Positions 19,375 to 53,508 of a DNA stretch of 64,000 nucleotides are shown here, in pieces. The notes below the pieces were generated by a model. That model did no database searches. It was given only the letters and a program-made list of their open reading frames with translations, and was not told where the DNA came from. The DNA comes from an uncultured Latescibacterota bacterium (lineage in GTDB: Bacteria; Latescibacterota; UBA2968), in NCBI GenBank assembly GCA_951812755.1, contig OX638329.1:3790522-3854521 (forward strand), read 5' to 3'. Within the stretch, counting starts at the first letter, position 1; each line of letters begins with the position of its first letter. A program made the translations under genes and the position numbers.

Positions 19375-19376
19375 GG

Positions 19377-20384: not shown

Positions 20385-20392
20385 AAAATCCC

Positions 20393-23972: not shown

Positions 23973-24003
23973 ATCAAACCCTTAATTTTCAGGTTATACA
24001 ATA

Positions 24004-24741
24004 TCATTCCGGCGCATCTCCATACACATTAAATCCCATCCGATCCTCACCGCGCACCAGATGAACGTGATGCCTTTTGTAACACCGCACAATCGGAATG
24101 GTAATGCGTATGGCCAATCCCAGGCGTCGGCGATCAGACGTGTTAGCCGCTGAGTGGTGGAGCATACGCTCGGTAAAAAGGAAAAATTGTCCGGCTCTCA
24201 TTTCCATTTTGACAACGCGCTCCGGGTCAATACCGGTATGATCGGGGTCGCCCTGTTCGCGAAAAGCCTGTTCAGGTGTGGCTTCAATGTGCGGAACCAT
24301 TTTTCGGTGCGATCTCGGCATGAGTTGCACACAGCTGTTGGTGACATCCGTATCGTCAATAGCCAACCAGGCAGAGACATTAATACCCGGTTCTATTTCG
24401 GTGGACCAGAAATTCATATCCTGATGCCAGGGGATTTCCTTGGCATCGGGATTTTTGTTAAAAAAGTTGGATTGCCAGAGTACGATATCCGGTCCGAGAA
24501 TGCCCTCTACTCGATCCATAATTGTCGGATGTGTACACAGGTCATAAATAGTTCGGTTATCGAGATGCCGCGATTTTTGCCGATTGACGTGAAACGGACC
24601 TTCGGCTTCAAAAATCTCATGCTCAACAATAGGCCGAATCTGATCCATTTCTTCCGGCGAATGCATCGTATATGGTCCCAAATAACCTTCGTCGTGAAAG
24701 AACCGCACGTCTTCTGGTGTTAATTTATAGGATTGAGACAT
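24004..24741 (-). CDS. Phytanoyl-CoA dioxygenase (PhyH) family protein, H-x-D type
   Basis: A 245-residue Fe(II)/2-oxoglutarate dioxygenase fold. The iron-binding facial triad appears intact: His106-Gln-Asp108 in IPWHQDMNFW and a distal His near 195 in RMLHHSAANTSDRRR, whose following Arg would hold 2-oxoglutarate. SHRKMVPH in between is the family's middle motif. CAGGAG precedes ATG 24741 by 5 bases; an in-frame ATG 21 bases upstream lacks a site. Bacterial PhyH proteins hydroxylate diverse small molecules. It is divergent from the DEAD-box gene across a 353-base gap and upstream of the ABC exporter pair. Confidence 0.82.
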   Translation of the reverse strand: MSQSYKLTPEDVRFFHDEGYLGPYTMHSPEEMDQIRPIVEHEIFEAEGPFHVNRQKSRHLDNRTIYDLCTHPTIMDRVEGILGPDIVLWQSNFFNKNPDAKEIPWHQDMNFWSTEIEPGINVSAWLAIDDTDVTNSCVQLMPRSHRKMVPHIEATPEQAFREQGDPDHTGIDPERVVKMEMRAGQFFLFTERMLHHSAANTSDRRRLGLAIRITIPIVRCYKRHHVHLVRGEDRMGFNVYGDAPE

Positions 24742-24879
24742 TTGTACTCCTGAGAAACGCATCGAGGCGCGATGGCAGGGTCAATTTAGTTTTTCAATCT
24801 CTATATTAGCAATTCGGATCAAAATTTCCAAGCCCCAACTCGTGCGAGGCCCAGAACAAAATGATGTCAAAAATTATGC

Positions 24880-38465: not shown

Positions 38466-40424
38466 TTGGCCGGGGTACAACAACCCATAGCTGAACCGGA
38501 GATTCGTCCCTTTCGGCACGCCATAACGGCTCGATCCATTGCGCTTGGTACGCTGTGTGTGACTTTCATGGCCTGGGGCGGTCACTACACGCGTCACATC
38601 GGTCATACGACCAAGATGGCGCAGGACCATCTGCCCTGGGGCGTGATGGTCCCCTTTTTCATCATCGTTGTCATTCTCAACAAGGTCATCCAGGCCATCC
38701 GCCCAAGGGCTATGCTCACAAGAGCCGAGCTTCTCGTCATCTTTGCAATGGCCCTGATCGGATCCGCTCTGCCCAGCTACTTCATGGCGCACATGATCGC
38801 GAACATCGGTGCGCCCTATTACTTTCCATCATCCGAGAATGGTTGGGCGACCGAACTGCATCCGTATCTCGTCAACTGGGCAGTCGTAACGGATGTTATT
38901 GCAGCCAAATGGTTCTACGAAGGACTCCCTCGCGGCGCTTCGATCCCGTGGAGAGCCTGGCTTATACCACTGACCTGGCGCCTGGTGCTCGTAGGCGCAG
39001 TCGCCTGCTTCTGCTATTGCATCGTCGCGATCTTCCGGAAGCAGTGGGTCGAGAACGAGCGGCTCTCCTTCCCCCTGATGAAGCTGCCGATGAACATGGC
39101 AGACGAGGAGCCTCGTGGGTTTTTCACCGCCGGGTTCATGAACCAGCCTGTTTTCTGGATCGGTTTCGCTTTTGCGATCTTTCCGATTATGTGGAATATG
39201 GTCGGATACTTCGCACCCGTTTTTCCGACCATTCCAAGGGATTTTGGGCTTATCCAACTGGAGCGAGACTTTCCCCCCATCGAAACCCGATTCTACCCAC
39301 TGATCATCGGTGCCTCTTACTTCGTTGAGCTCGAAGTATCCGGAAGCATCATCATCTACTTCCTGTTCCTGACGTTTCAGCTTGGTATGTTCAGAAGACT
39401 TGGATTCGAAACCGGTCCACTGCGTGCAGACACTTCCGATTTTGAAAACTGGCAAGGACTTGGCGCACTTTTTGTCCTGATTCCCTGGGGGCTGTGGATC
39501 GCCCGCGGCCATTTGAAAGATGTCGTCAGAAAGGCATTTACAAAGGACCCCACGATAGACGATACTCAGGAGATGCTCTCCTATCGTTCAGCGATATTCG
39601 GACTCATCCTCAGTGCGATGTTCATCTGCGCGTGGTGCGTCGCATCGGGAATGACCGTATATGTGGCGTTTGTCTTCGTCGCCCTTGTCATTTTAGTCTG
39701 GCTTGGGATCTCAAAGATCAGCATCGAAACGGGGCTGATCAGCTCTCGCATCATACACGCGCAGTTCGCGACCTATCATATTGTTGGGCTCACAAACATG
39801 AACGCGCAGAGCATTGTGGCATTGGCGTTGACCTACACCTGGCACCGCGATCTGAAAACTGTCCTGATGGCTCCGATGGCCAACGCCACAAAACTCTTCG
39901 ATGATGTCCGCGAAGACCGGGGGAGAATGATTCTCGCAGTCGCGATCGCCGTTGCCGTTGTTGTGGGAGGCAGTGCCTATTACGCGATATCTTCCGGCTA
40001 CCAGACGGGCGCATACAACTACGGCAGCATCTACGCGGGATCCGTGCAGGCTGTGTTTGATCGGGGCGTTGGTTATATCCGCGACCCCTTCGCAATGAAG
40101 CGACATCTCGCCTTGTGGGGGCTGATCGGAGCTGCCGTCACCGTCGCCAATATGATCCTCCGCTATATCTATCCGACTTTTCCGCTGCACCCCATCGGCC
40201 TGGTCTCGGCAACCTCATACCCTGCCAATCGCACTATATTCTCGATTTTCTTCGCCTGGTTCGCCAAAGCCGCCATCCTCCGTATTGGCGGCATCAGCCT
40301 GTATCGCAAAGCCTCACCCTTCTTCTTTGGTATGATGCTGGGGTATTTTGTTGGTGTCGGAATTTCGTTTGGCGTTGACATGATCTGGTTTCCAGATGAC
40401 GGGCATTCACTCGCGCTATACTAA
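38466..40424 (+). CDS. Multi-pass membrane protein of the DUF6785/DUF6784 type
   Basis: A 652-residue integral membrane protein with about 12-14 hydrophobic segments (for example LLVIFAMALIGSALPSYFMAHMI, VILVWLGI, MILAVAIAVAVVVG). It resembles the DUF6785/DUF6784 proteins of Poribacteria and Latescibacteria genomes, and more distantly OPT-type transporters. Function is not known; transport of a small organic compound is plausible. It starts at a TTG with GGAG 7 bases upstream; the start lies at the edge of the ABC-gene remnant, so its translation signals may derive from that duplication. It is 84 bases upstream of the complete ABC gene. Confidence 0.62.
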   Translation: MAGVQQPIAEPEIRPFRHAITARSIALGTLCVTFMAWGGHYTRHIGHTTKMAQDHLPWGVMVPFFIIVVILNKVIQAIRPRAMLTRAELLVIFAMALIGSALPSYFMAHMIANIGAPYYFPSSENGWATELHPYLVNWAVVTDVIAAKWFYEGLPRGASIPWRAWLIPLTWRLVLVGAVACFCYCIVAIFRKQWVENERLSFPLMKLPMNMADEEPRGFFTAGFMNQPVFWIGFAFAIFPIMWNMVGYFAPVFPTIPRDFGLIQLERDFPPIETRFYPLIIGASYFVELEVSGSIIIYFLFLTFQLGMFRRLGFETGPLRADTSDFENWQGLGALFVLIPWGLWIARGHLKDVVRKAFTKDPTIDDTQEMLSYRSAIFGLILSAMFICAWCVASGMTVYVAFVFVALVILVWLGISKISIETGLISSRIIHAQFATYHIVGLTNMNAQSIVALALTYTWHRDLKTVLMAPMANATKLFDDVREDRGRMILAVAIAVAVVVGGSAYYAISSGYQTGAYNYGSIYAGSVQAVFDRGVGYIRDPFAMKRHLALWGLIGAAVTVANMILRYIYPTFPLHPIGLVSATSYPANRTIFSIFFAWFAKAAILRIGGISLYRKASPFFFGMMLGYFVGVGISFGVDMIWFPDDGHSLALY

Positions 40425-40508
40425 TTAGGTAGCGGATTATTCAGAATATTCATAAATTTACATGTCTATGTTGATTTTACGAAGGTCTCGCAAGACCTGA
40501 GGATGACA

Positions 40509-42359
40509 ATGAGAATTCTCGACATTCCCCAGAGGAAGCCCGAAGTATGGCGAGGTCCCGCCTGGTCTCCAGATCGGGAACGGGCAAACCGCGAATGGGA
40601 AACCTTCTGGCGATTTTTCAAGTACCTGTATCCCCACAAGACAAAAGTCATCCTCGGGATGCTATTCATCATGGTAGGCGTTCCGCTCCGTGAGATAAGC
40701 GTCTTTGTGAATCGATATCTGGTCGATGACGTCATCTTGAACATCGACCTGCCAGTAGATCGCCGCTTGCAGCTTTTATTTATTGTCTTTGGTATCAAGT
40801 TCCTGATGTATGTCATCTCGAATGTCTCTCAGATAACACGGCGTATCCTCGGGTGGTATATCGACATGAAAGTCACCATCCACCTGCGCACGCTCTTCTA
40901 CGACCACCTCCACAAACTTTCCCTGGGCTTTCTTCAGAGTCGGCCCATCGGCGAACACATGTATCGCAGCACCGCCGACGTCGGAGGTGGCCTGATTACC
41001 ATGATCACCGACGATGTTCCCAATGCGATTACCATAGCCTACCGGATTATCTGGACGGGCATCATCCTCAGTCTGGTCGATCCCTATCTCACATTGCTGA
41101 TTTTTCTCTACTCCTTTCCCTACACAGCCCTATCCCACTACTTCTACACGCGCCTTCAGAGAGTCCGCTGGGACATGAGAATGCAGGCACAGTACCTGAG
41201 GTCGATCTTGAGAGACGGTATAGCCGCGACCAAAACCGTCAAAGGTTTTGGCCGTACGCGCTGGTCTGCCCGCCGATATGCATCGACTTTTATCGAGAAC
41301 CGCAGATACTGGATCAAGTACCGCGTTCTACATATCTTTACGCACCAGGGCGTTCTGTGGTTTCTCTCTGAGGGCGTTGAAAAAGTGCTGTGGCTCTACG
41401 TGGGTTACCACACCATGACCGGGGAGTTGAGCATCGGAGAATTCAGTGTTGTGTTTTTCCTCGCCCGGCAATTTGAAGGCCCGATGGAGAGAATGATCAG
41501 GCTGATCCAGAGCATTCGCCTTCAACTCGTCCAGGCCGAACGCGTCCTGCAAACCCTTGACGTTCGCCCCCAGATAAGCGATGCGCCCGATGCGAGCACC
41601 ATGCCATCCCTCAGCGGCACAATCGAATTCAGAAATGTGGGATTCGAATACGTATCGGGACAGCCCGTGCTGGAAAATATCAATATCACAATCCGTCCCG
41701 GAGAGCGCGTCGCATTCGTGGGACCAAGTGGCTCGGGCAAGACCTCGATGCTATACCTCATCTTGAGGCTTTACGATCCCACCACTGGATCAATTCTCGT
41801 AGATGGACTCGACCTGAAAAACGTCCGGCTCTTGAGCTACCGCAATCAACTCGGCGTTGTGCTTCAAGACACCTTTTTATTTTCCGGAACTGTTCGCGAA
41901 AACATCCGCTATGGCAATCTAAAGGCTTCGGATGCAGACGTAGAGGAAGCAGCGCGCATGGCCGCGCTTTACGACGCCGTCACCGCCCACCCGGAGGGAT
42001 TTGAAAGAGATATTGGAGAGGGAACGAGATTATCCGGCGGACAAAAGCAAAGAATGGGTATTGCCCGCGCCCTGGTCAGAGACCCCGCTGTTTTCATCCT
42101 GGACGAGGCGACTTCGAACCTGGATTCTCGGTCGGAAGAACACGTCATGGACACAATCTGGAACGTATCGGAAGGGCGAACCACCGTGATGGTTTCTCAC
42201 AGACTCATGACAGTTCAAAAAGCAGACCGAATCTACGTTCTGGATCAGGGCAGAATTGTCGAAAACGGCACACACGATGACTTGTTGGAAGCAAACGGCC
42301 TCTATCGCCAAATATGGGACGAGCAGATGCAGTTGGGTACAGATAGTGCAGCCGATTGA
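40509..42359 (+). CDS. ABC exporter half-transporter
   Basis: A 616-residue type IV ABC exporter half. An N-terminal 35-residue cytoplasmic stretch precedes six helices (about 45-330). Motifs: Walker A VGPSGSGKTSML, signature LSGGQKQRMG, Walker B FILDEATSNLD with catalytic Glu, H-loop VSHRLMT. GAGG is 6 bases before ATG 40509; the ATG 6 bases earlier abuts the ribosome site. It resembles the exporter half at 45029 (both have EHMYR...AD in the coupling region: EHMYRSTADVGG and EHMYRASADTGA) and the two may pair, though both have complete ATP sites. It converges on the MacB-like permease. Confidence 0.86.
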   Translation: MRILDIPQRKPEVWRGPAWSPDRERANREWETFWRFFKYLYPHKTKVILGMLFIMVGVPLREISVFVNRYLVDDVILNIDLPVDRRLQLLFIVFGIKFLMYVISNVSQITRRILGWYIDMKVTIHLRTLFYDHLHKLSLGFLQSRPIGEHMYRSTADVGGGLITMITDDVPNAITIAYRIIWTGIILSLVDPYLTLLIFLYSFPYTALSHYFYTRLQRVRWDMRMQAQYLRSILRDGIAATKTVKGFGRTRWSARRYASTFIENRRYWIKYRVLHIFTHQGVLWFLSEGVEKVLWLYVGYHTMTGELSIGEFSVVFFLARQFEGPMERMIRLIQSIRLQLVQAERVLQTLDVRPQISDAPDASTMPSLSGTIEFRNVGFEYVSGQPVLENINITIRPGERVAFVGPSGSGKTSMLYLILRLYDPTTGSILVDGLDLKNVRLLSYRNQLGVVLQDTFLFSGTVRENIRYGNLKASDADVEEAARMAALYDAVTAHPEGFERDIGEGTRLSGGQKQRMGIARALVRDPAVFILDEATSNLDSRSEEHVMDTIWNVSEGRTTVMVSHRLMTVQKADRIYVLDQGRIVENGTHDDLLEANGLYRQIWDEQMQLGTDSAAD

Positions 42360-42363
42360 GATC

Positions 42364-44814
42364 TCATTCGTACTTAAGCGCCTCAATCGGATTGGTTTGC
42401 GCCGCTCTCCAGGCCTGATAACTCACAGTGATCAGAGCAATGGCAATAGCCAGTACGCTACTCAACACAAATACTGAGAGACCCAGGCCAATGCGGTAGG
42501 CAAAATCGGCTAACCAGTCATTGAGCATGTAATAAGCCAGAGGCCATGCAATGAGACTGGCAAACGCGACCAGCACGACAAATTCGGCAGAAAACATCGT
42601 CACAATTTGCCCAGCAGAAGCGCCGAGCACCTTGCGCACCCCAATCTCCTTTGTACGCCGTTGGGCAGAAATAGCTGCCAGGCCGAACAGCCCCAAACAG
42701 CACACCACGATCGCCAGCAAAGAAGAAATGCCAGCAATTCTTCTCAGGCGAAGTTCATTTCGGTACGCAGATGCAAATCCATCATCCATAAAAATGGGAT
42801 TAAACGCTTCATTGGGCACGAATTTATACCATTCCTTTTCCAAAAAATCCATCGTTTCTACAAACTGCCCACCCTTTACTTTAAGCGTTAAATACGCATA
42901 TAGCCTGGCCCACTGGATGAATGCGAGAGGCGCGATTTTTTCCTTTAAGGAATCAAAATGGTAATCCTTAAACACGCCCACAACAGTACCCGCGCCGCCA
43001 CCACCATCCAGCCTCTGAATTTGTTTGCCGATGGGATTATCCCAGCCAAATAATTTGGCTGCCGATTCATTGATCAAAAATTCGCGCGTCCATCCTCTGA
43101 GGGGATTGCCCTTGCCCGGGGTGAAATTTTTGCCTGCAATGAGTTCAATCCCCATTGTTTTTACAAAGTCCCCATCGACCTCGTTTATCAGAATCCACCA
43201 GTCATCCCCCGGCAAATCTTCTGGGCGAATGGGCTTGCTCCGCGAGCCACCCCCGCTGGGGAAGGCGCGATACTGAGATGCCGTTGCCCCAACGACATTG
43301 GGATGCCTCAAAAACGACTGCTTCACAGTACTGTATCGCGACGACAGGCGGTTGGCGTGAACGAAATGTGCCTCCCGGCTCGAAGTAAAAATGGGCAACA
43401 TGACCAGGTGTTCTGTATCAACCCCCAGATCCCGATCCAGCATATAAGAGATCTGGTTGCGCACCACCAGCGTGCCTACAATCAAAAAGATCGAAATTGA
43501 AAATTGGAATATCACCAGTCCCTTCCAGAACCAGGATCCCCCCGATCTGGATTGTATCTGGCTCTTCAATGTATCAATCGGCTGCCAGGCAGACAAAACA
43601 AAGGCGGGATAACCTCCGGCGAGTACCCCGGATACCAGCACCACGCCGATCAACGCCGGGATCAAAGTCATATATGCTCTGAGATCTAACACCAGATTTT
43701 GCTGGATCAAATCATTAAACACGGGCAGTGCCGCGTGCGCGACAATAAGTGCCAGCAACAACGCGAGACCCGCGACAATCAGGGATTCTCCCAGAAATTG
43801 CTGGATCAACTGACCGCGACTGGCACCGACCACTTTTCGCAAGCCCACCTCTCTTGCGCGCCGGACTGATTGGGCTGTCGCCAGGTTCATAAAGTTCACG
43901 CAGGCAATGATCAGAATAAATGCGGCAATCACACACATCGTATAGAGTTGATCGATATCGCCGAAGCTCTTGATGTCGTAATCTGCACGCGAATGCAAAT
44001 AGACCCGATGCAGGGGTTGGAGATGATAGGCATTGTATTTTTGGATTTCTGCGCCCATATAGCGCTTTATAAAATCTGGAAATTTTTGTTCCAGTGTTTT
44101 GGGAGAAACACCTTCTTGAAGCAAAATATATGTTTGTATCGGTCGAAAACCCGCAGCCTTATCCCAGACGTGCCATTTATTCCTCCATTGGGCATTGGGG
44201 TCTCGCGATACGAACATATTAAATGGGATTGTGGTGGGTTCAAGGCGATCTTTCAACACACCCCGCACAATATAGTCTCCGCCAAAGATAGAATTGACAA
44301 CAGTGAGCACCCTGCCCATCGGGTTTTCTTCGCCGTAGATGCGATTCGCCATTCTCTCGGTAATCACAATACTCGTTGGATCTTCAAAAGCCGCCTGTGC
44401 GCTACCCTGAACAAATTCAGCTTCAAATACGTCAAACACGTGCTTGTCAACGAGATTGAGTCGTGTGGGAAACAAAATATTCTCGCGTTCGACCTTCACA
44501 TTCCAGGGCCATATTCGAACGGCTGATTCCACTTCGGGAAAATCGCGTTGCAACGCGGGGGCCAAAGATCCCGATGTGCCCCAGGAAAAAGTGCGCGATC
44601 CGCCCTGGATATTTATTTCTCGCACGACCTTGTAGATGCGATCTCCCTTTTCATATCTGTGATCGTATTGCAGTTCGCGTTGTAAAAACAACACAATCAA
44701 AAGACAGCAGGACATGGCGATGCCCAGACCGATGATATTGAGCGCGGAATACACTTTGTTCCGCATCAAATTCCTGATAGCAATTTTGGCGTAATTTCCA
44801 ATCAGATTAAACAT
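42364..44814 (-). CDS. MacB/FtsX-type ABC permease without an encoded ATPase
   Basis: An 816-residue permease with two MacB-type periplasmic domains and two FtsX transmembrane units. Residues 20-45 form the first helix (NIIGLGIAMSCCLLIVLFL). A periplasmic domain follows to about 270, then three helices with ATAQSVRRAREVGLRKVVGAS. A second periplasmic domain ends near 690, then QRRTKEIGVRKVLGASAGQI and the last helices. Such long permeases are common in FCB genomes and act with separate LolD/MacB-like ATPases in lipoprotein or peptide export. No partner ATPase is adjacent. It sits on the opposite strand between two exporter halves, ending 4 bases from the first. GGAG precedes its ATG by 9 bases. 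Confidence 0.85.
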   Translation of the reverse strand: MFNLIGNYAKIAIRNLMRNKVYSALNIIGLGIAMSCCLLIVLFLQRELQYDHRYEKGDRIYKVVREINIQGGSRTFSWGTSGSLAPALQRDFPEVESAVRIWPWNVKVERENILFPTRLNLVDKHVFDVFEAEFVQGSAQAAFEDPTSIVITERMANRIYGEENPMGRVLTVVNSIFGGDYIVRGVLKDRLEPTTIPFNMFVSRDPNAQWRNKWHVWDKAAGFRPIQTYILLQEGVSPKTLEQKFPDFIKRYMGAEIQKYNAYHLQPLHRVYLHSRADYDIKSFGDIDQLYTMCVIAAFILIIACVNFMNLATAQSVRRAREVGLRKVVGASRGQLIQQFLGESLIVAGLALLLALIVAHAALPVFNDLIQQNLVLDLRAYMTLIPALIGVVLVSGVLAGGYPAFVLSAWQPIDTLKSQIQSRSGGSWFWKGLVIFQFSISIFLIVGTLVVRNQISYMLDRDLGVDTEHLVMLPIFTSSREAHFVHANRLSSRYSTVKQSFLRHPNVVGATASQYRAFPSGGGSRSKPIRPEDLPGDDWWILINEVDGDFVKTMGIELIAGKNFTPGKGNPLRGWTREFLINESAAKLFGWDNPIGKQIQRLDGGGGAGTVVGVFKDYHFDSLKEKIAPLAFIQWARLYAYLTLKVKGGQFVETMDFLEKEWYKFVPNEAFNPIFMDDGFASAYRNELRLRRIAGISSLLAIVVCCLGLFGLAAISAQRRTKEIGVRKVLGASAGQIVTMFSAEFVVLVAFASLIAWPLAYYMLNDWLADFAYRIGLGLSVFVLSSVLAIAIALITVSYQAWRAAQTNPIEALKYE

Positions 44815-44931
44815 GAAACAGGCTCCTGCAGACGCAATGAATGTGTCACAACATACAAACTACTGTATAAAAAAACCAATTTTCTACCAGACGCAATTGT
44901 TTTCTGTTCTCCCACAAACCCGAGAATCCAA

Positions 44932-44963
44932 TTGACATTCAAACCTATCTTCGCCTAATTTAA
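44932..44963 (+). promoter_or_regulatory. Divergent-promoter motif, copy 3
   Basis: TTGACAT-N10-CTTC-N7-TTAA, with 34 of 42 bases equal to the copy at 33322-33363. It lies in the 214-base gap between the MacB-like gene (minus) and the ABC exporter operon (plus). The operon start codon is 66 bases downstream. Confidence 0.55.
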
Positions 44964-45028
44964 GCGGTTTGGTGTCTTTTGGAGAAATAGCCTCCACGCC
45001 TGTATTTGGACAGGACTAAGGCCGAACA

Positions 45029-46825
45029 ATGTTCAACTATTTTCCCCCTCCCCGCAAGGGAGCAAAACAGTCGCTTATAAGAGTCTTTCTGCGTTTTCTC
45101 AGGCTAATGATTCCGGTCTGGGATAAGGCACTGCTCGTCGTAATGGGCACGATCGTCGTCAGCACGTTTCGGGTTGTGAATCCGTGGCTGAGCAAGTTCC
45201 TCGTCGATGATGCTTTTCCAAATCAGGATTGGAACCTGTTCTACAGCATCTTTGTCGCCTATGTTGTGCTTGTTCTGATTCAGAGATTGGTCGGCACCAT
45301 GTCAACCATACTCAATCACTACGTAGATCTACGCGTGAGCTTAGCCCTCAAAACCCACTTCTTCACCCACCTCCAGCGTCTCTCCATGACCTTCTATGAG
45401 AGTCGTGGTATTGGCGAACACATGTATCGCGCCAGCGCAGATACTGGGGCCGTAATGCGCATGATTACGGACATCTTGCCGGCGACATTGCGGGCGGTCT
45501 ATGAGTTCATACTCATACTCATCTTCACCACCTGGTTGGACTGGCGGGTCTCGCTGGTCATTCTGATTTACTCGATCCCTTATGGTATGATCGCCCAGAA
45601 GATCGCGACCATACAGCGCAGATTCGATCGCCGCGTAAGAGAGAGATGGCAGGCGCGCGACGCCGGGCTTCAAGAAGGCGTTGCCGGAGCAGCTGTCGTA
45701 CAGACATTTGGTCGGCGCCGGCACGAAGTAAAGCGATATGTTAATCTCACCATTGAAGGATATCGCGCCGCGATGCGCCTGTTTTATATGCGTACCATCG
45801 AACGAGAAATGGCGGGCAATAGCGGCTTGCTCCCTTGGGCTAAAAATCAACTGATAAGACTATACTTCCTCAGAGAAGTTATTTTAGGCAACCTCTCCTA
45901 TGGGTCCGTCTTCCCCATTTTCTCCTATTCGAACCGCCTGTCCAATCCCATTCAAGTCCTGATTCGGTATTTTCAGCAAGTTCGCATTGCAATGGTTCCC
46001 GCCGAGCGCATTCTCGAAACACTGGATCAGGTTCCCGCTGTTACAGACCGTCCCAATGCACCAGCAATGCCACCTGTCAGGGGCGATGTCGTCTTTGACA
46101 ATGTTTCCTTTTCTTACGAGGATGGCACACCGATCCTGCGCAACCTGAGCTTCACCGTTCAGGCAGGTCAAAAAATCGCCCTGGTGGGACACAGTGGATC
46201 GGGCAAGACCACGGTCGCAAACCTGCTTCTCAGGCTATACGACCCGGATTCGGGCAGGGTAACAGTAGATGGCCAGGACCTCCGAGAAGTGAAATCGAGC
46301 ACCTATCAGGATCAGGTTGGTCTGGTTTTACAGGAAACGCATTTGTTCAACGGAACAATCAAAGAAAATATCTTGTTCGGTCAGCCCCATGCATCTGACG
46401 ATGAGGTGGTCAGAGCCGCCCAACTGGCGGACATAGACGCATTTGCCTCATCCCAACGCAACGGATATGACACCGACCTTCGAGAAGGCACGCGAATTTC
46501 AGGCGGACAGAAACAGCGGATCGGGATTGCCCGTGCCATGGTTCGCGATCCCAAAATTCTCATTCTGGACGAGCCCACATCGTCCCTGGACAGCGCCACA
46601 GAACAGCGATTTCTGCAAAGCCTGAACCGCGTGGCAGAAGGGCGCACCACCTTCATAGTCTCTCACAGACTTACAACAGTGGCAAACGCCGACCAGATCA
46701 TCGTTCTCGGCGACGGTCAGATCCTCGAACAAGGAACACACGCAGAACTGATTCGCAATGGGGGCGAGTATGCAGAGATGTACCGGCGATACCTCGGCCT
46801 GGATGATACCAGACAAGTTGGGTAA
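45029..46825 (+). CDS. ABC exporter half-transporter, first gene of the PhyH operon
   Basis: A 598-residue type IV exporter half. Six helices lie at about 30-320, then the ATPase: Walker A VGHSGSGKTTVA, signature ISGGQKQRIG, Walker B LILDEPTSSLD, H-loop VSHRLTT, all canonical. It opens a plus-strand operon with short gaps: adaptor (30 bases), PhyH (14), PhyH (12), sulfatase (1) and PhyH (15). Pairing with an HlyD-like adaptor suggests export across the envelope, although the adaptor could also attach to the 40509 half-transporter. Its promoter region holds the third divergent motif. Confidence 0.86.
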   Translation: MFNYFPPPRKGAKQSLIRVFLRFLRLMIPVWDKALLVVMGTIVVSTFRVVNPWLSKFLVDDAFPNQDWNLFYSIFVAYVVLVLIQRLVGTMSTILNHYVDLRVSLALKTHFFTHLQRLSMTFYESRGIGEHMYRASADTGAVMRMITDILPATLRAVYEFILILIFTTWLDWRVSLVILIYSIPYGMIAQKIATIQRRFDRRVRERWQARDAGLQEGVAGAAVVQTFGRRRHEVKRYVNLTIEGYRAAMRLFYMRTIEREMAGNSGLLPWAKNQLIRLYFLREVILGNLSYGSVFPIFSYSNRLSNPIQVLIRYFQQVRIAMVPAERILETLDQVPAVTDRPNAPAMPPVRGDVVFDNVSFSYEDGTPILRNLSFTVQAGQKIALVGHSGSGKTTVANLLLRLYDPDSGRVTVDGQDLREVKSSTYQDQVGLVLQETHLFNGTIKENILFGQPHASDDEVVRAAQLADIDAFASSQRNGYDTDLREGTRISGGQKQRIGIARAMVRDPKILILDEPTSSLDSATEQRFLQSLNRVAEGRTTFIVSHRLTTVANADQIIVLGDGQILEQGTHAELIRNGGEYAEMYRRYLGLDDTRQVG

Positions 46826-46855
46826 CGCAATCTCCTCATAATTACGGATAAAAAA

Positions 46856-48184
46856 ATGCAAACAACAGAGAAACCGAAAACACAGAGCTTGAGAACCCGC
46901 AGACTTATTGCGAAGTACGTCAAATATCTGGAGATATTCGGGTATGGCTTTGTTTTTGCGGTCGCCACAGCCATCGCCTTTCTGTGGTTTACGAAGACAG
47001 AAGACCTCGTGTTATCTAATGCAGAACCGATCAAGCCGCACGAATATGTCCTATCCCTCGATGAGGACATCGTAGTCATAGAAGCACTGGTAAAAAATAA
47101 AACCGACGTAACAGTTGGTCAGCCGCTATTTGAAATTTCCAGAGATAAATCTCAGGTCAACCGCTATCGCGCAAAACAAGTTGCAGAAGAACTAAGTGGT
47201 GAACTCGACAGCCTTGCCACATCATCCTCCCTAACTCTATCGGAACGGGAACTTCAGGGTGTAATGAGAAGTGCGGTGTCCGGATGGGAACAAGAACTTT
47301 CCGGACGCGAGACATTGACTGCTACACACGCTGGCGTCATCCTGTTTGAGGAGGAAATCGTCGGAACGGTCATGCCGAAAGGAGACGAAATCGCGCGCAT
47401 TCTGGATTTTGACGATCTGCGGATTTCAGCAGGTCTAAAGGGCGCTGTACAAAGGCTCGCACGCGTTGGTCAACCGGCCCATATTGAAGTGATTACAACT
47501 TATGGAGACGGCGAAATTCTGAGAACAGACATCGATTCGCCGGATTCGTGGGGCACGGGATTTGCGCAATTTAACGATATCTCGGATGGCCAGATCACCA
47601 AGCAACTGGAAGACTACTTTTCGGGTAAACTCGTCGCCATAGAAGACGATACAGTATTCGCACTCGGCAAGGTGAAAAAAATCGATCTCCACAGCGTGCT
47701 GAACGTGCAGGATGCCGGGCCATCCGATCCCGGAGAGAAGATCGAAGCCGAGCCACTAAACCAGATAGCCCTAACCGGTACAGTCATCGAAGGTACCCAT
47801 ACTGCGGAATTCAGGATTCACACTTTTCCCAACGAGATTCAACAGGAAATCCAGAATACACTTCAGGACCGCATTTTGGAAAGGCAATTCGACACAGACG
47901 GTCAGCCCCTATCCGTAAATGAAATCACTGATCTGAGTATGATTATCGAGATGGATGCCGATGAGCCAGAGATTGACGGGACGAGCCTGGACGTGCAGAT
48001 GGTCGATGCCGAAAAGACAAAGCGTTCTTTTAAGGGCGTGATCAGAATCGACGATCCACATCCGATGCTCAAAGCAAAAGTTCGGGAACTCGCATTGCTA
48101 AAAAAACCCATCTATATCAAGGCAATTGTGAAGGTCGTAGTGGGCGAAAGACGAATCGCAATGCTCCTATTCAGGAAGAACTAA
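46856..48184 (+). CDS. Membrane-anchored HlyD-like adaptor (periplasmic)
   Basis: A 442-residue protein with one N-terminal membrane anchor (about 26-46, EIFGYGFVFAVATAIAFLWF) and a large periplasmic part. Residues 55-95 look like the first half of a lipoyl-type hairpin (HEYVLSLDEDIVVIEALV, VTVGQPLFEIS), a short helical stretch at 105-160 replaces the long coiled coil of classical HlyD, and residues 165-215 look like the second half (LTATHAGVILFEEE, VMPKGDEIARILDFDDL). The C-terminal 200 residues are beta-rich and unfamiliar. Its place directly after an ABC exporter supports a membrane fusion role. The short hairpin means it may not reach an outer-membrane TolC-like channel by itself. Confidence 0.6.
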   Translation: MQTTEKPKTQSLRTRRLIAKYVKYLEIFGYGFVFAVATAIAFLWFTKTEDLVLSNAEPIKPHEYVLSLDEDIVVIEALVKNKTDVTVGQPLFEISRDKSQVNRYRAKQVAEELSGELDSLATSSSLTLSERELQGVMRSAVSGWEQELSGRETLTATHAGVILFEEEIVGTVMPKGDEIARILDFDDLRISAGLKGAVQRLARVGQPAHIEVITTYGDGEILRTDIDSPDSWGTGFAQFNDISDGQITKQLEDYFSGKLVAIEDDTVFALGKVKKIDLHSVLNVQDAGPSDPGEKIEAEPLNQIALTGTVIEGTHTAEFRIHTFPNEIQQEIQNTLQDRILERQFDTDGQPLSVNEITDLSMIIEMDADEPEIDGTSLDVQMVDAEKTKRSFKGVIRIDDPHPMLKAKVRELALLKKPIYIKAIVKVVVGERRIAMLLFRKN

Positions 48185-48198
48185 CAGGACGAGTTACA

Positions 48199-49017
48199 AT
48201 GAATGAAGTCGAACAATATGAATTTGACCGTCAGGGATATATCACAATCAAAAACATGCTCACGGATGCAGAAGTGCAATCCCTGCGCAAAGCCGTTGAC
48301 AAATTGGAAGAACACGCCCTATCCAATGTCGATCTACCACCTCGGAAACTCAGTGCCTGGGGAGCTGATTACCATATCAACAAAGAAAAAGGCTACCACG
48401 CTCAGGGATCATGTGCCGAGGGAAAAACCCTGATCATCGAAGACTTTTGGAATTCAGATCCGACATTTGATTTCCTCGTAACCCACGAAAAAACATTGCC
48501 ATACGTGCAAGCCGTCATCCGCGGTCGCTACACCATCAACAATTCAGAGATCCGCATTCGGTATAAAAACAATACATCGCGCAGCCACGGCGGCACGAGA
48601 CCGGAAAATCAAAAATACCGCTATACCAGCAGTGATCGCATCGATTGCATGATGGTGCGCATGATTTACTTTATACACGATGTCACCAATGAACAAGGCG
48701 CGTTCTGCGTCGTCCCCGGCACACACAAAAGCACCATGCCCTGCCCTTACGACAACGATCCAGATGTAGAACCGGGCATGATCGGATTGGAAGTCAAAGC
48801 TGGCGATGCGATCTTTTTTACAGAACACCTGCGACACGGTGGCTTGACCAACCGCTCAGATCAAGTCCGCAAAACCATCCACGTAGGTTATGGTCCCTAC
48901 TGGATGATGTCGCAAAATATCGCCACCATGGATGAACCCCAGCATATCACATCGCACACACTGGCGCGATATACAGAAGAACAGCGCAATTTGTTTCGAC
49001 CGTGGCCCGAAAAATAG
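48199..49017 (+). CDS. PhyH-family protein with H-x-G in place of H-x-D
   Basis: A 272-residue PhyH-like protein. The expected iron motif reads TSRSHGGTRP, His130-Gly-Gly132, with no Asp. The middle motif VVPGTHKSTMPCP and the distal TEHLRHGGLTNRSDQVRK (His213, Arg224) are intact. Lack of the carboxylate ligand recalls Fe/2-oxoglutarate halogenases, in which halide takes the free site, but may also mark an alternative or lost activity. Encoded 14 bases after the exporter adaptor and 12 before another PhyH gene. AGGACG lies 9 bases before the ATG. Confidence 0.74.
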   Translation: MNEVEQYEFDRQGYITIKNMLTDAEVQSLRKAVDKLEEHALSNVDLPPRKLSAWGADYHINKEKGYHAQGSCAEGKTLIIEDFWNSDPTFDFLVTHEKTLPYVQAVIRGRYTINNSEIRIRYKNNTSRSHGGTRPENQKYRYTSSDRIDCMMVRMIYFIHDVTNEQGAFCVVPGTHKSTMPCPYDNDPDVEPGMIGLEVKAGDAIFFTEHLRHGGLTNRSDQVRKTIHVGYGPYWMMSQNIATMDEPQHITSHTLARYTEEQRNLFRPWPEK

Positions 49018-49029
49018 AGGAGCAAACCA

Positions 49030-49821
49030 ATGTCTGAGAAAACAGCGCGTGAGCATCTGCCTATGTCGGATTACGAAAAATTCCTCTTCGACTTAAAAGG
49101 CTTCCTCGTCATCCCCAGTGTGCTCACCGACGAAGAAATCGCGATCGCACGCGACCATATCGCTACGTATATGAAAACGCCCGACAGCCTTCCCGAGCAT
49201 CATCGCTCGCCAATTGCTGGCCCCACTGAATTCCTGATCGATCACCCGCGCGTCATGGGCATTCTCCAGGAGGTCATTGACCCGGATCGGGAGCGCATCC
49301 GATTGGAAAGCGTATTCATATCCGGCCGATCTGCTGAGAAAACCGGCAACGAGTGGCGGCCACACGTGGGGGGAACAAACCTCCACCCTTCGTTCTCTTT
49401 TCGCTTCCACAACGGGCGCATCTACAGCGCAATGACTCGCATTGTCTGGGAATTGAACGAAGTAAAAAAAGGCCAGGGCGGCACCTGCCTCGTGCCCGGC
49501 TCGCACAAAGCCAACCTCGCATCTGCCCAGGACGGAACCTGGCCCGAAGAAGCCGATGATCCAGACTCGGGGGTTTGGGAAACCTATGGCTGCCCGCCGG
49601 GAAGCCTCGTCGTATTTTCAGAAGGCGTGCGGCACACGGGATCTACCTGGACCAATTCGGACAATCCGCGACGCGCCATCCTCATGGCATACAATCACGT
49701 AACCGTGCGATTCCACGAACCCAAGCCTTGCATGAACCCGGTCGTAATCAATGGCCTATCTGAAAATCGCCAGTCTTTCTTCCGCGATGTCTGGATCTTA
49801 GCCAACAAGCGAAGGGGATAA
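49030..49821 (+). CDS. PhyH-family protein with H-x-G in place of H-x-D
   Basis: A 263-residue PhyH-like protein. The motif position reads EWRPHVGGTNLH, His112-Val-Gly114. The middle motif is CLVPGSHKANLA, and distal SEGVRHTGSTWTNSDNPRR gives His202 and Arg214/215. GAGGAG precedes the ATG by 8 bases. It lies one base before the sulfatase start, so expression is coupled. It is only distantly similar to the preceding PhyH; the two are probably old paralogs that act on the same or successive substrates. Halogenase-type chemistry is a hypothesis only. Confidence 0.74.
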   Translation: MSEKTAREHLPMSDYEKFLFDLKGFLVIPSVLTDEEIAIARDHIATYMKTPDSLPEHHRSPIAGPTEFLIDHPRVMGILQEVIDPDRERIRLESVFISGRSAEKTGNEWRPHVGGTNLHPSFSFRFHNGRIYSAMTRIVWELNEVKKGQGGTCLVPGSHKANLASAQDGTWPEEADDPDSGVWETYGCPPGSLVVFSEGVRHTGSTWTNSDNPRRAILMAYNHVTVRFHEPKPCMNPVVINGLSENRQSFFRDVWILANKRRG

Positions 49822-49822
49822 A

Positions 49823-51265
49823 ATGCCAACAGCCGAAAACGCTCCCAATATTCTCTTTATCCTGACCGATCAATGGCGGGGAGATTGTCTGGGCTATACC
49901 GGTCATCCCGCAGTTGAAACCCCCCACCTGGATTATCTGGCAGGCGATGGTGTCACATTTACCCAGGCGTATGCCTCGTGCCCGGTATGCGTTGCAGCCC
50001 GCGCCACAATCCTCACGGGTCTCGCCCCCAAGCGACATGGGTATCTCACCAACGGCGGCGTGCAATGGGACTATCCAGTAACACTTCCCGGAACCCTATC
50101 AGATGCGGGTTATCACACCCAGTGCGTCGGCAAAATGCACGTCTATCCCTGGCGCAATCTCGTAGGTTTTCACAACGTCGTACTGCACGACGGCTATATG
50201 CATCGCGCCCGGCGAGAAAACCGCGAATTCGGATTAAACGACGATTACACCCCCTATCTTCGGGAAAAACTCGGCGAAGTCTATGCCGACCACAACGACT
50301 CGGGTGTGGGATGCAATGGATACGCGGCACAAGCCTGGCCCTACCACGAAATGCTTCATCCCACGAGTTGGGTCACCACGCAGGGTATAGACTTTTTACG
50401 CAGGCGCGATACATCCAAGCCCTTCTTCCTCACGCTATCCTACCATCGGCCCCATCCGCCTCTGGACCCTCCTGCGTCTTTCTTGAATCGCTATTTGCAA
50501 AAGGACATTCCCCCACCCGCCATGGGAAACTGGGTTGACCACGAACTCCGCAAGGGCGGCCACGATAGCCCGATCCCCCGGGACCCAGCACTGGTGGATT
50601 TTGCCCGAAGAGCGTATTACGCACAGATTTCACACATTGATTTCCAGATCAACCGCATGATCATGGCACTCAACGAATACGGAGTCCAGGACAACACCGC
50701 CATACTCTTCACCGCGGATCACGGTGAAATGCTATACGACCACAACCATGTGGGAAAAGGCGTGCCCTATGACGGATCCGCTCGCGTGCCCTTCATCCTG
50801 CGAATGCCCAAAACATCTGGCACTGTGGAACGTGGATCGCTTGTAGAATCGCCGGTAGAACTGCGGGACATCTTCCCAACCTTCTGCGACATCGCTGGAA
50901 TCGATACCCCGGACGATCTCGACGGCGAAAGTGTACTGAATTGTGGGGGAAATAATTGGCGTCCGTTCATCCACGGAGAACACGCGACATCCGCCAATCA
51001 GTGGCTTACGGATGGCAAGGAGAAGTACGCCTGGTTTACCCAGACGGGAAGGGAGTTGCTCTTTGATCTAACCGAAGACCCCCGCGAAATCAACGACCTG
51101 TCCCGCACTCGTCCCGACCGATTGGCCTGGTGGCGCGATCAACTGATCGAGGAACTCACGGGGCGTCCAGAGGGCTTTGTCCAGAACGGAAAACTCGTGC
51201 CCGGACGACCGATCCAGGGCTTGCTACCCCACGTCGGCAAAGGCGTCCCTAAAGGCGCGATTTGA
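49823..51265 (+). CDS. Cytoplasmic type I sulfatase with C-x-A-x-R motif
   Basis: A 480-residue sulfatase. The formylglycine site reads CVAAR with Cys56 (CPVCVAARATILTG), the rarer Ala variant of C-x-P/A-x-R. Metal ligands are Asp16 in ILTDQW and FTADHGEMLYDHNH near 300. FLTLSYHRPHPPLDPP is typical of arylsulfatase/choline-sulfatase-like members. No signal peptide. It lies between PhyH genes in the exporter operon, suggesting a sulfated intermediate or substrate. Whether Cys or another residue is matured depends on an enzyme not encoded in this window. Confidence 0.83.
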   Translation: MPTAENAPNILFILTDQWRGDCLGYTGHPAVETPHLDYLAGDGVTFTQAYASCPVCVAARATILTGLAPKRHGYLTNGGVQWDYPVTLPGTLSDAGYHTQCVGKMHVYPWRNLVGFHNVVLHDGYMHRARRENREFGLNDDYTPYLREKLGEVYADHNDSGVGCNGYAAQAWPYHEMLHPTSWVTTQGIDFLRRRDTSKPFFLTLSYHRPHPPLDPPASFLNRYLQKDIPPPAMGNWVDHELRKGGHDSPIPRDPALVDFARRAYYAQISHIDFQINRMIMALNEYGVQDNTAILFTADHGEMLYDHNHVGKGVPYDGSARVPFILRMPKTSGTVERGSLVESPVELRDIFPTFCDIAGIDTPDDLDGESVLNCGGNNWRPFIHGEHATSANQWLTDGKEKYAWFTQTGRELLFDLTEDPREINDLSRTRPDRLAWWRDQLIEELTGRPEGFVQNGKLVPGRPIQGLLPHVGKGVPKGAI

Positions 51266-51280
51266 GCAGAGGAATATCCC

Positions 51281-52102
51281 ATGTCACTTCACGAACCCTT
51301 TACTGAAGAAGAACTATCGCCGATTCTCGAAGATTTTTACAAAAACGGCGCGACCATCATCCGAAACGTCTTGTCCCGGGAAGAATGCGAGCAAATATGC
51401 AGACGCGTCGATCAGATCTTTGCAGAACCCTATTTCGCCGAAATGCGAAACGTAAAAATCAAACCACAGCACAACGGCAAAGAACCCATCGTTGTGCATC
51501 GGCTATTTGAATGCGACCGGATGTTCCGCGACCTGCTCGTGCGCGAGCCTGTCATATCTATTGCCGAAACAGTCCTCGGTCCCCAGTGCCATTGCATGGC
51601 GCAGGGATGCATCTTGAACCGCACGGATCTGGGCATTAACCGCTTTCACGTAGATGACAGCCTGGAATTTCCAATTACGGACGACAATATCAGCAGCCAT
51701 GACAAGCGTCTTCAAATGCCCGTTTTTCGCATGTCGTTCCAGATCGCCCTGACAGACCAGGACGAAGACCAGTATGGACCCAGCCAATTCGTGCCCGGCA
51801 GCCACTATGCGGGCAGACAACCCAACGATCCAGAAAATCCAACCTTCGACGGACAAGGTCCCAAATCTCTGCACATGAAAGCGGGTGACCTCTACCTCCT
51901 GAGCAGCCAAACCTGGCACCGCGGCGCCCCCAATACATCCGATCGCGTCCGCTACCTCTTTCACCAGGTCTATAGTCAGCGTTTCGTCGCCCAGCGATTC
52001 TGGCCCTATCTCAACTATCACATGCCCGATTACGTCCTCGAAGGCGCCGACGAACGCCTCCTCCGCGTTCTCGGAAAACACCCCGAAATGGCTTATGGAT
52101 AA
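51281..52102 (+). CDS. PhyH-family protein, H-x-D type
   Basis: A 273-residue PhyH-family oxygenase with an apparently intact iron site: His123-Val-Asp125 in NRFHVDDSLEF, and distal His213 in SQTWHRGAPNTSDRVRY with Arg222/224 for 2-oxoglutarate. The middle motif is FVPGSHYAGRQ. It is the last gene of the exporter operon, 15 bases after the sulfatase, with GAGGA upstream. It is thus the one PhyH in the operon that should be a conventional hydroxylase. No clear terminator follows; the next feature is a minus-strand helicase remnant. Confidence 0.82.
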   Translation: MSLHEPFTEEELSPILEDFYKNGATIIRNVLSREECEQICRRVDQIFAEPYFAEMRNVKIKPQHNGKEPIVVHRLFECDRMFRDLLVREPVISIAETVLGPQCHCMAQGCILNRTDLGINRFHVDDSLEFPITDDNISSHDKRLQMPVFRMSFQIALTDQDEDQYGPSQFVPGSHYAGRQPNDPENPTFDGQGPKSLHMKAGDLYLLSSQTWHRGAPNTSDRVRYLFHQVYSQRFVAQRFWPYLNYHMPDYVLEGADERLLRVLGKHPEMAYG

Positions 52103-52106
52103 GGCA

Positions 52107-52477
52107 TTACATCTGCAGGTCATCCAGGAACTCCGAAGCAGGTGTAACCCCCGTGATCAATAAGTGATCCCGAGCGCGTGTGCATGCGACATAGAGCAAG
52201 TGCCTCTCTGTATCGTAAACCTCTTCGAGATCCGCACTATCCGCAACTGTCTCAATCCGATCCTGTAGCGGAATAACCTCATCGTCACACGCCATCACTA
52301 CGACAGCGCGAAACTCCAATCCCTTCGCCAGATGCATCGTGCTTATCGATACGCAGTCCTTGTCCTTCCCATCGAGTTCATCTGCAGATCAAAGGCCGTG
52401 GTTTTCACGGCCTTCTGTTCATTCCCGGTCAGCCTGGCGAGACTATCGGTGAAAGTATGGGCGATGCGGAAATTCAT
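52107..52477 (-). pseudogene. Internally deleted UvrD-type DNA helicase remnant
   Basis: Two ends of one gene are joined. From ATG 52477 the minus strand reads MNFRIAHTFTDSLARL, then TGNEQKAVKTTAFDLQ, the N-terminus of a helicase family with a toxin-like leading domain. At about 52385 it passes, in another frame, to the C-terminal helicase part: ISTMHLAKGLEFRAVVVM, EVYDTERHLLYVACTRARDH and ASEFLDDLQM with a normal stop at 52107. The whole central helicase region (several hundred residues) is missing. CTGCAG marks the junction area. It is non-functional; it records a past intact gene here. Confidence 0.75.
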
Positions 52478-52699
52478 TAATTATTCACTTTTATGGTCCA
52501 GTCTCTCAGCAACACTTTTGCGCTCGGTGAGCATAGTCCTGATGTCTGCTTAACTCAAGCCTCCGAAAAAAAAGCCCCAAGGGATCGGTCTCGCTCATGA
52601 TCATCCTCGCTGTGCGAGAGGAGCAAGACGTACTGCCAGGGGGCGAATGTGAATCAAAAATTGGGCTTTTCAGCACCTGTGGTCTATCCCTCAGATGAT
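52478..52699. other. Gap with no gene
   Basis: No ORF with a ribosome site was found. AAAAGCCC near 52564 and GGGCTTTT near 52670 are inverted but more than 90 bases apart and do not form a convincing terminator. Read on the minus strand, CCCTTGGGGCTTTTTTTT is only weakly hairpin-like. Confidence 0.4.
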
Positions 52700-52816
52700 C
52701 TACCCCTTAGATTCATTGTTATACCGTTTTCTCGTGCTCATAATGGACCAGGTAGCTACACCAATACCCATTATTGCAACCAAAATTGAGACTATGATAA
52801 GGATAGTTTCAAACAT
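52700..52816 (-). CDS. Small single-helix membrane protein (38 residues)
   Basis: ATG 52816 is preceded by AGGAGGAATAAA, a strong ribosome site that overlaps the end of the upstream gene's coding region. The peptide begins MFETILIIVSILVAIMG, continues with a hydrophobic helix to about residue 25 and ends in a charged tail (TRKRYNNESKG). The start is 1 base after the stop of the 134-residue membrane protein, so the two form a small operon. Too short for a family assignment; it may be an accessory subunit of its neighbour. Confidence 0.6.
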   Translation of the reverse strand: MFETILIIVSILVAIMGIGVATWSIMSTRKRYNNESKG

Positions 52817-52817
52817 T

Positions 52818-53222
52818 TTATTCCTCCTCAACCAGTTTCGATACTCTATCATATACGGAGAAACTCAAGAGAAACGACACAAGACTGGAGACCATAGAAA
52901 TATATTTTATGGTCTCCCCCCTGATCAATCCAGGGTTAGACTGTCCCAATAAGTAAGCCGTGAATAAGACACTATAGAGTGATATAAAACCAATTGAGAT
53001 CCCGTTTTGAATTGTTTTCCAAGATTTTTCGTGATCATTGAAATGCTCTATCTCATTGATATTGGATATATGTAAGATCAATCCAAACGCCACGAAGTCT
53101 GAGGCGTTGAAGATGTCCATCGTTCTGTCCTGTGAGATAAACCATATCAATATTCGCAAGAGAGCAGGTATGACACCTACAAGCACAGTATATATGAGCC
53201 ACTTAATTTTTATATTTGCCAT
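52818..53222 (-). CDS. Unknown four-helix membrane protein
   Basis: A 134-residue protein with four predicted membrane helices: about 7-28 (KWLIYTVLVGVIPALLRILI), 42-55 (FVAFGLILHI), 72-92 (GISIGFISLYSVLFTAYLLG) and 105-122 (SMVSSLVSFLLSFSVYD). The loop between helices 2 and 3 is charged (EIEHFNDHEKSWK). I do not recognise the family. It is more A/T rich than the surrounding genes. Followed at once by a 38-residue single-helix gene. A weak GAAGGA site precedes the ATG. Confidence 0.55.
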   Translation of the reverse strand: MANIKIKWLIYTVLVGVIPALLRILIWFISQDRTMDIFNASDFVAFGLILHISNINEIEHFNDHEKSWKTIQNGISIGFISLYSVLFTAYLLGQSNPGLIRGETIKYISMVSSLVSFLLSFSVYDRVSKLVEEE

Positions 53223-53401
53223 TAAATTCGCTAAAGATCCTTCTGGTATCTAGTGCATCTCGGCAAAAGAAACTGGTCATATCAATTTGACTTGCGGTTG
53301 TCATTGCGGCATGGTTTAAGCCGCAATCCAGAAGGTTTTGATGTTCACTTCTATATGTCGCAAGACTTACGCCACGATGCACTAGCTTATTCTTTCTGAT
53401 A

Positions 53402-53445
53402 TTGACAAAGTATTATAGAATAGAGTATAAGTCTCGATTTGTCAA
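53402..53445. promoter_or_regulatory. Overlapping divergent promoters sharing an inverted TTGACAAA
   Basis: TTGACAAA (53402-53409) and TTTGTCAA (53438-53445) are perfect inverted repeats 28 bases apart. Each contains a -35 box pointing inward: on the minus strand TTGACA is 17 bases from TATTCT, on the plus strand TTGACA is 18 bases from TATAAG. The minus promoter could drive the membrane-protein pair about 190 bases away. I see no plus-strand gene downstream. The rest of 53223-53508 holds nothing recognisable. Confidence 0.4.
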
Positions 53446-53508
53446 CCCGTGTCCATTTCGATTATAGCCCCCACATACAAGTGCCACTCCCGTGGTTCCT
53501 GCCCGGCA

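Follow-up and report, generated by a model that had tools for sequence, protein, structure and literature searches.

A genus-level gene set joining an ABC exporter and HlyD-like adaptor to PhyH oxygenases and a sulfatase in an uncultured Latescibacterota bacterium

Why should an exporter, a membrane-anchored adaptor, three PhyH-family oxygenases and a sulfatase be encoded side by side, and do they serve one common substrate? The question is raised by a locus in an uncultured Latescibacterota bacterium (GCA_951812755.1), the genome of which is one contig of 6.53 Mb (OX638329.1); the stretch that we analysed, positions 3,790,522 to 3,854,521 or 64,000 nucleotides, is hereafter the window, to which all coordinates refer. 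We report that the six genes at 45029-52102 are a conserved same-strand set found in one genus. Our leading, still tentative, reading is that a block of tailoring enzymes was recruited to an exporter-adaptor core, and that a carbohydrate-like substrate would be modified and then exported. An earlier note, made from the letters alone, had drawn attention to these genes; its observation is confirmed and its interpretation is partly supported.

The six open reading frames (ORFs) are all on the plus strand with intergenic gaps of, in order, 30, 14, 12, 1 and 15 bases, as the earlier note had described. Its assignments (ATP-binding cassette (ABC) exporter half, HlyD-like adaptor, PhyH and sulfatase) also hold, all scoring above the Pfam cut-offs (22 bits for PhyH and 22.2 bits for HlyD_3). 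The features are as follows.

40503..42359, plus strand: ABC1, an ABC exporter half-transporter of 618 amino acids (aa) and probable partner of ABC2 (Pfam ABC_membrane + ABC_tran)
42364..44814, minus strand: FtsX/MacB-type permease, membership of the unit uncertain (Pfam MacB_PCD + FtsX)
44932..44959, plus strand: promoter-like element TTGACA-16-CCTAAT (sequence scans and alignment of relatives)
45029..46825, plus strand: ABC2, an ABC exporter half-transporter of 598 aa (Pfam ABC_membrane + ABC_tran)
46856..48184, plus strand: membrane-anchored HlyD-like adaptor of 442 aa (Pfam HlyD_3)
48199..49017, plus strand: PhyH1, a PhyH-fold oxygenase with H-x-G replacing H-x-D (Pfam PhyH, 69.0 bits)
49030..49821, plus strand: PhyH2, a PhyH-fold oxygenase with H-x-G (Pfam PhyH, 43.9 bits)
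49823..51265, plus strand: cytoplasmic formylglycine-type arylsulfatase (Pfam Sulfatase, 170.7 bits; NCBIfam NF010322)
51281..52102, plus strand: PhyH3, a canonical H-x-D PhyH oxygenase (Pfam PhyH, 63.6 bits)

Tight spacing, a unique and conserved promoter-like element and a conserved order all suggest an operon, and we infer that 45029-52102 is co-transcribed. A scan of window positions 40300-53500 against Rfam gave no match.

To what extent is the set kept in relatives? The adaptor was searched in 60 relatives, and 7.5-19 kb were read around the matches. Of the ten other genomes in the genus, eight have it (G001-G004, G006, G007, G009 and G010, the last on two contigs), and it was not found in G005 or G008; outside the genus it was found once among the 60, in G021, a member of another family (43% identity). 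Among named records it matches Candidatus Latescibacterota metagenome-assembled genomes (MAGs), including one from Lake Baikal, and two contigs of a single MAG labelled Gemmatimonadota. Judging by isolate names, several adaptor-bearing relatives appear to be sponge-derived. The earlier note had made the operon depend on gene order in relatives, and the order ABC1-[FtsX, opposite strand]-ABC2-adaptor-(PhyH1)-PhyH2-sulfatase-PhyH3 is kept in 8 further species. PhyH1 is missing in G006 and on one of the two G010 contigs; contigs end after the sulfatase (G003) or just after ABC2 (G005), and G010 contig 4 begins at ABC2. The G009 adaptor gene is interrupted near codon 375 by a frameshift (L009, L012, L021), which is either an assembly error or real, making a pseudogene. 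In pairwise comparisons with the window, every gene has a dN/dS (the ratio of nonsynonymous to synonymous substitution rates) of about 0.02-0.22, and ABC2, the adaptor and all enzymes are under purifying selection. Together with the order kept in 8 further species, these ratios argue that the gene set is not due to chance. The exact six-gene set was found in this genus only.

No orthologue of ABC2, the adaptor, PhyH1, PhyH2, the sulfatase or PhyH3 is present in the complete sister genome G008, where the best matches are distant paralogues and the block is missing beside the copy of the right-flank gene. Elsewhere, the genes past PhyH3 and ahead of ABC1 vary among relatives. We rejected this variability as proof of independent insertion: G004 and G006 have the right-flank gene about 14-15 kb off on the contig that carries the block, so that the location of the block is unchanged and a variable insert separates it from the flank. 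Directly beyond PhyH3 the window holds what is left of a UvrD/PcrA-type helicase C-terminus, HLLYVACTRARDHLLITG (52107-52390, minus strand), the frame of which is cut by an upstream stop. A DUF6785/DUF6784 protein is encoded directly upstream of ABC1 (38466-40424, plus strand), and its gene is missing at that spot in G006, G005 and G010 contig 140. In the G010 MAG the operon is present twice, once with PhyH1 and once lacking it (L008/L019 and L011/L020; contigs 4 and 140), which represents either a strain mixture or a duplication.

The exporter part of the earlier note stands for the ABC half at 45029 but was incomplete, as ABC1 and the intervening FtsX gene had been overlooked. ABC1 and ABC2 are 39-40% identical. 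G021 has homologues of ABC1 (63%), ABC2 (66%) and the adaptor (43%) in direct succession on one strand; in the genus, the FtsX permease sits between ABC1 and ABC2, and it is not between them in G021. Two half-transporter genes and an adaptor gene are thus found together in both settings, adjacent in one and FtsX-separated in the other. The unit is probably bigger than six genes, the exporter being ABC1 plus ABC2 rather than the 45029 half alone. From these arrangements, an ABC1/ABC2 heterodimer and the adaptor would make up the older core, to which the inverted FtsX permease would be a later neighbour. By sequence inspection the Walker A, signature and Walker B Glu are intact in both halves; both ATP sites therefore look intact and homodimers are also possible. 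For both halves the nearest NCBIfam family is MsbA-type, under every cut-off.

The adaptor matches HlyD_3 alone in Pfam (25.2 bits) and nothing in NCBIfam. It has one hydrophobic, putatively transmembrane, segment at the N-terminus and two lipoyl-type halves flanking a hairpin region of ~50 residues, which is probably too short to be the classical long hairpin of HlyD. Its profile gave weak matches only against the PDB, including the adaptor MexJ at E 0.14, and no outer-membrane protein gene was found in the operon or nearby. Half-transporters with intact ATP sites and an anchored adaptor with lipoyl half motifs recall the MsbA/HlyB-type exporters with HlyD adaptors, which serve type I secretion and glycolipid export, whereas scores below NCBIfam cut-offs, the short hairpin, and the lack of a peptidase domain and of an outer-membrane gene set the operon apart from those systems.

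Is the expression of this set under dedicated control, as the earlier note had proposed for the motif at 44932? With up to 3 mismatches allowed, TTGACA-16 nt-CCTAAT occurs as a single copy in the window and in the whole genome, and it is conserved upstream of ABC2 in 9 aligned upstream regions of the genus. Its -10 box does not pass the strict rule of the promoter scan. For a loose form of the two boxes alone, the expectation is 0.9 occurrences per window, so that support for the element comes from its conservation and position. By its sequence it looks like a sigma-70-type promoter with a weak -10 box; a conserved and unique promoter-like element is thereby retained from the earlier proposal, but it has an ordinary appearance with nothing beyond its uniqueness that is specific to dedicated regulation. 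A regulon sharing the motif was considered and rejected, as a second genomic copy was not found. An operon for a ribosomally synthesised and post-translationally modified peptide (RiPP) was likewise rejected: the 215-base gap upstream of ABC2 shows indels among relatives and no conserved ORF.

What do the H-x-G proteins do? The motif residues read 'SHGGT' in PhyH1, 'PHVGG' in PhyH2 and canonical 'FHVDD' in PhyH3, in agreement with the two H-x-G proteins and one conventional PhyH that had been noted before. PhyH1 and PhyH2 exceed the cut-off of PhyH (PF05721) and lack the Asp; PhyH3 has both the score and H-x-D...H. The His does not vary among 27 full-length PhyH1 orthologues, in which the +2 residue is G or P, never Asp or Glu, while H-x-G-G is present in all PhyH2 orthologues and also in distant paralogues. 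For both proteins, 4xc9 is the closest chain of solved structure (profile E 2.6e-9 and 1.3e-8, bits about 40), named 'oxidase/hydroxylase' in the PDB table and reading L-H-G-G in both profile alignments; we take it to be HygX, the hygromycin B iron/2-oxoglutarate (Fe/2OG) oxygenase (PDB 4xc9/4xca/4zpi), the metal site of which is unusual. HygX resembles PhyH1 and PhyH2 in having the PhyH fold with H-G-G for H-x-D and in its place in the same clade (below), and differs in being distant in sequence and a member of a sugar-antibiotic cluster.

When the triad columns were masked, the tree placed HygX and 13 carboxylate-lacking PhyH proteins of the genome in one 14-member clade (98/84), a grouping to be read with the long branches of PhyH1 and HygX in mind. 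A 94-row FastTree gave a near-identical HygX grouping, from an alignment with the PhyH1 His out of register. One more H-x-G protein, L108, arose apart from this clade. Nearly all of the carboxylate-free PhyH proteins sampled are in one clade with HygX, constituting a large oxygenase radiation. Moreover, 8 of the 42 PhyH proteins picked outside clusters lack the carboxylate, about one fifth of the sample, so the trait is common in the genome. On the strength of these alignments and trees, H-x-G is real but not diagnostic of halogenation, since the motif is a trait of the clade containing HygX.

This bears directly on the interpretation in the earlier note, which had allowed for halogenation. 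Under a version close to that idea, PhyH1 and PhyH2 would be Fe/2OG halogenases tailoring a natural product, and a halogenated metabolite would be secreted. Fe/2OG halogenases, SyrB2, WelO5 and BesD-type enzymes among them, usually have Ala or Gly at the carboxylate position (PMC8407142), where PhyH1 and PhyH2 have Gly, and the lineage is probably a marine symbiont. While the carboxylate is missing, kinship to a characterised halogenase was not detected: there was no halogenase among the PDB chains up to E = 10 with the PhyH2 profile or E = 1 with that of PhyH1. The H-x-G/A/S proteins cluster instead with HygX, one of the oxygenases implicated in the orthoester formation of sugar antibiotics and not in the making of a C-halogen bond (PMC8234114). 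With a fifth of the sampled PhyH proteins lacking the carboxylate, and a scaffold-making gene not present in the operon, we regard halogenation as very improbable.

The sulfatase is a type I arylsulfatase by score (573.8 bits for NCBIfam NF010322 arylsulfatase against a cut-off of 481), by its C-x-A-x-R formylglycine motif (CVAAR) and by the presence in the genome of the formylglycine maturase family (20 FGE-family matches). Its sequence has no evident signal peptide, consistent with the cytoplasmic location claimed before. The nearest solved chains are 9koq and 7oz8, and matches below 1e-130 are confined to the genus.

Have these enzymes a common history with the exporter? The PhyH3 protein is 93-94% identical to genes of a different family of the class, and the DNA homology (91.4-91.8%; L179, L180, L181, L183, L184) covers window positions 51265-52103 and nothing beyond, its limits being the stop codon and about 15 bases ahead of the start. 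Between the same two groups PhyH1 is about 65% identical at the protein level. A gene-length DNA identity this high next to the PhyH1 value argues for horizontal transfer of a single gene, in either direction. As to PhyH1, the L020 and L013 junctions retain the adaptor stop and the sequence ahead of PhyH2, and L019 and L015 share local sequence with them yet retain PhyH1, which suggests that PhyH1 was probably lost at least twice. As judged from these comparisons, the enzyme block is a mosaic, added piecewise to an older exporter.

Several observations weigh against the tentative reading of a tailoring block with a common substrate. PhyH1 was lost while the rest of the block stayed. The orthologues of PhyH1 and PhyH2 were surveyed in 64 genomes of the phylum; outside the genus they are 63-78% (PhyH1) and 67-82% (PhyH2) identical, and in adaptor-free genomes they are unlinked, on separate contigs or at separate positions, with neighbours such as aconitase X plus swivel domain, Zn-dehydrogenase, amidohydrolase, MR_MLE and other PhyH genes. 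Lying mostly among catabolic genes and not together, they suggest that the link to export may be incidental. Their separation from transporters is not absolute, as ABC genes are near two PhyH2 loci and an ABC pair is a few kb from one PhyH1 locus (L132, L137, L120). Moreover, the G021 exporter and adaptor occur without a PhyH1 or PhyH2 orthologue, on a contig that ends just after the adaptor, and AlphaFold2 models from shallow alignments reached mean confidence (pLDDT) values of 36 and 34 for PhyH2 and the adaptor. In L123 (5022-7604) and L122 a PhyH1 orthologue directly adjoins aconitase X and its swivel subunit, suggesting that in other genera PhyH1 has a catabolic role in hydroxy-acid or hydroxyproline-like metabolism.

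The main rival explanation is that the genes are incidental neighbours, the four enzymes having come from a very large catabolic repertoire of PhyH, sulfatase, enolase-superfamily and dehydrogenase genes and been inserted behind an exporter promoter with no substrate in common with the exporter. At least 156 PhyH and at least 152 sulfatase matches were counted in the genome. In a neighbourhood test with 150 genes of each kind and circular shifts, 37 PhyH genes had a sulfatase start within 2 kb, versus 12.3 expected (sd 3.8); such neighbours are three times as frequent as by chance, and the composition is therefore a local theme. A second gene set in the window (18043-24762, minus strand) encodes a canonical PhyH (24004-24762), two ABC exporter halves that overlap (22227-23972 and 20393-22240), a Zn-dependent dehydrogenase and a class-III aminotransferase, with a heparinase-like protein next to it (15740-18031). 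Together with the excess of PhyH-sulfatase neighbours, it indicates that exporter-PhyH and PhyH-sulfatase combinations recur. The earlier suggestion that the composition is undescribed is weakened by these recurrences; a literature search found no paper on this gene composition. Similarly, the proposal of one functional unit survives as a conserved same-strand set, while a single dedicated pathway is weakened by the mosaic origin, the unlinked orthologues and the PhyH1 losses. The catabolic neighbours of the orthologues, the lone exchange of PhyH3 and the two losses of PhyH1 all fit incidental neighbours; against this stand the joint absence of the block genes from G008 and the close packing and gene order that 8 further species retain despite variable flanks. 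We consider incidental neighbours a doubtful explanation, though the most serious competitor.

The reading of a recruited tailoring block, which the joint absence of the block and the enzyme orthologues in complete G008 favours, would describe a genus-level accessory operon built upon an older tripartite exporter. ABC1 and ABC2, by their adjacency to the adaptor, may form a heterodimeric MsbA-like exporter that passes its substrate to the HlyD-like protein. Cytoplasmic enzymes would have been recruited singly: two HygX-clade oxygenases, a formylglycine sulfatase and a canonical PhyH. The sulfatase may strip a sulfate ester in the cytoplasm, the oxygenases may hydroxylate, desaturate or ring-close the same compound class, and the product, or an unusable remainder, would be pumped out by the exporter; the heterodimer, the order of steps, the substrate class and the direction of transport are all put forward here as presumptive parts. 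Many sulfatases act on sugar sulfates, and since HygX acts on a sugar antibiotic, a sugar or glycoside is the most plausible substrate. These two points would also suit an envelope operon in which a glycolipid or surface oligosaccharide is flipped or exported after its sugars are edited by the sulfatase and oxygenases, and MsbA-type families are the best, albeit sub-cut-off, matches of both ABC halves. A glycosyltransferase or lipid enzyme is not present in the operon, however, and we judge an envelope function improbable. A more specific form of the tailoring reading would be a previously undescribed system, one representative of a large carboxylate-free oxygenase radiation in Latescibacterota: HygX-clade oxygenases and the cytoplasmic sulfatase would alter sulfated glycosides from the sponge surroundings, and the oxidised product would leave the cell through a dedicated tripartite ABC exporter. 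We consider this form unlikely.

Comparable ideas exist for other uncultured bacteria. SAR202 cells have been modelled as modifying recalcitrant organic compounds, catabolising some and exporting the rest (PMC6946804). They likewise have paralog-rich oxygenases, sulfatases and enolase-superfamily enzymes with a proposed export of undegradable matter; they differ in phylum and oxygenase families, and in the Latescibacterota operon the enzymes and exporter share one gene set. Poribacteria are sponge-associated and uncultured, with very many diverse PhyH genes without known function; they belong to another phylum, and an exporter operon is not among the features described in the part of that account available to us (PMC3909097).

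Finally, the operon links two expanded and poorly understood families, PhyH and sulfatase, to a transporter and in this way offers a handle on their substrates. Given the HygX-containing clade and the roughly one fifth of sampled PhyH proteins without the carboxylate, halogenase mining by H-x-G alone would over-call in these bacteria, and the clade itself is a source of enzymes that might catalyse unusual oxidative cyclisations.

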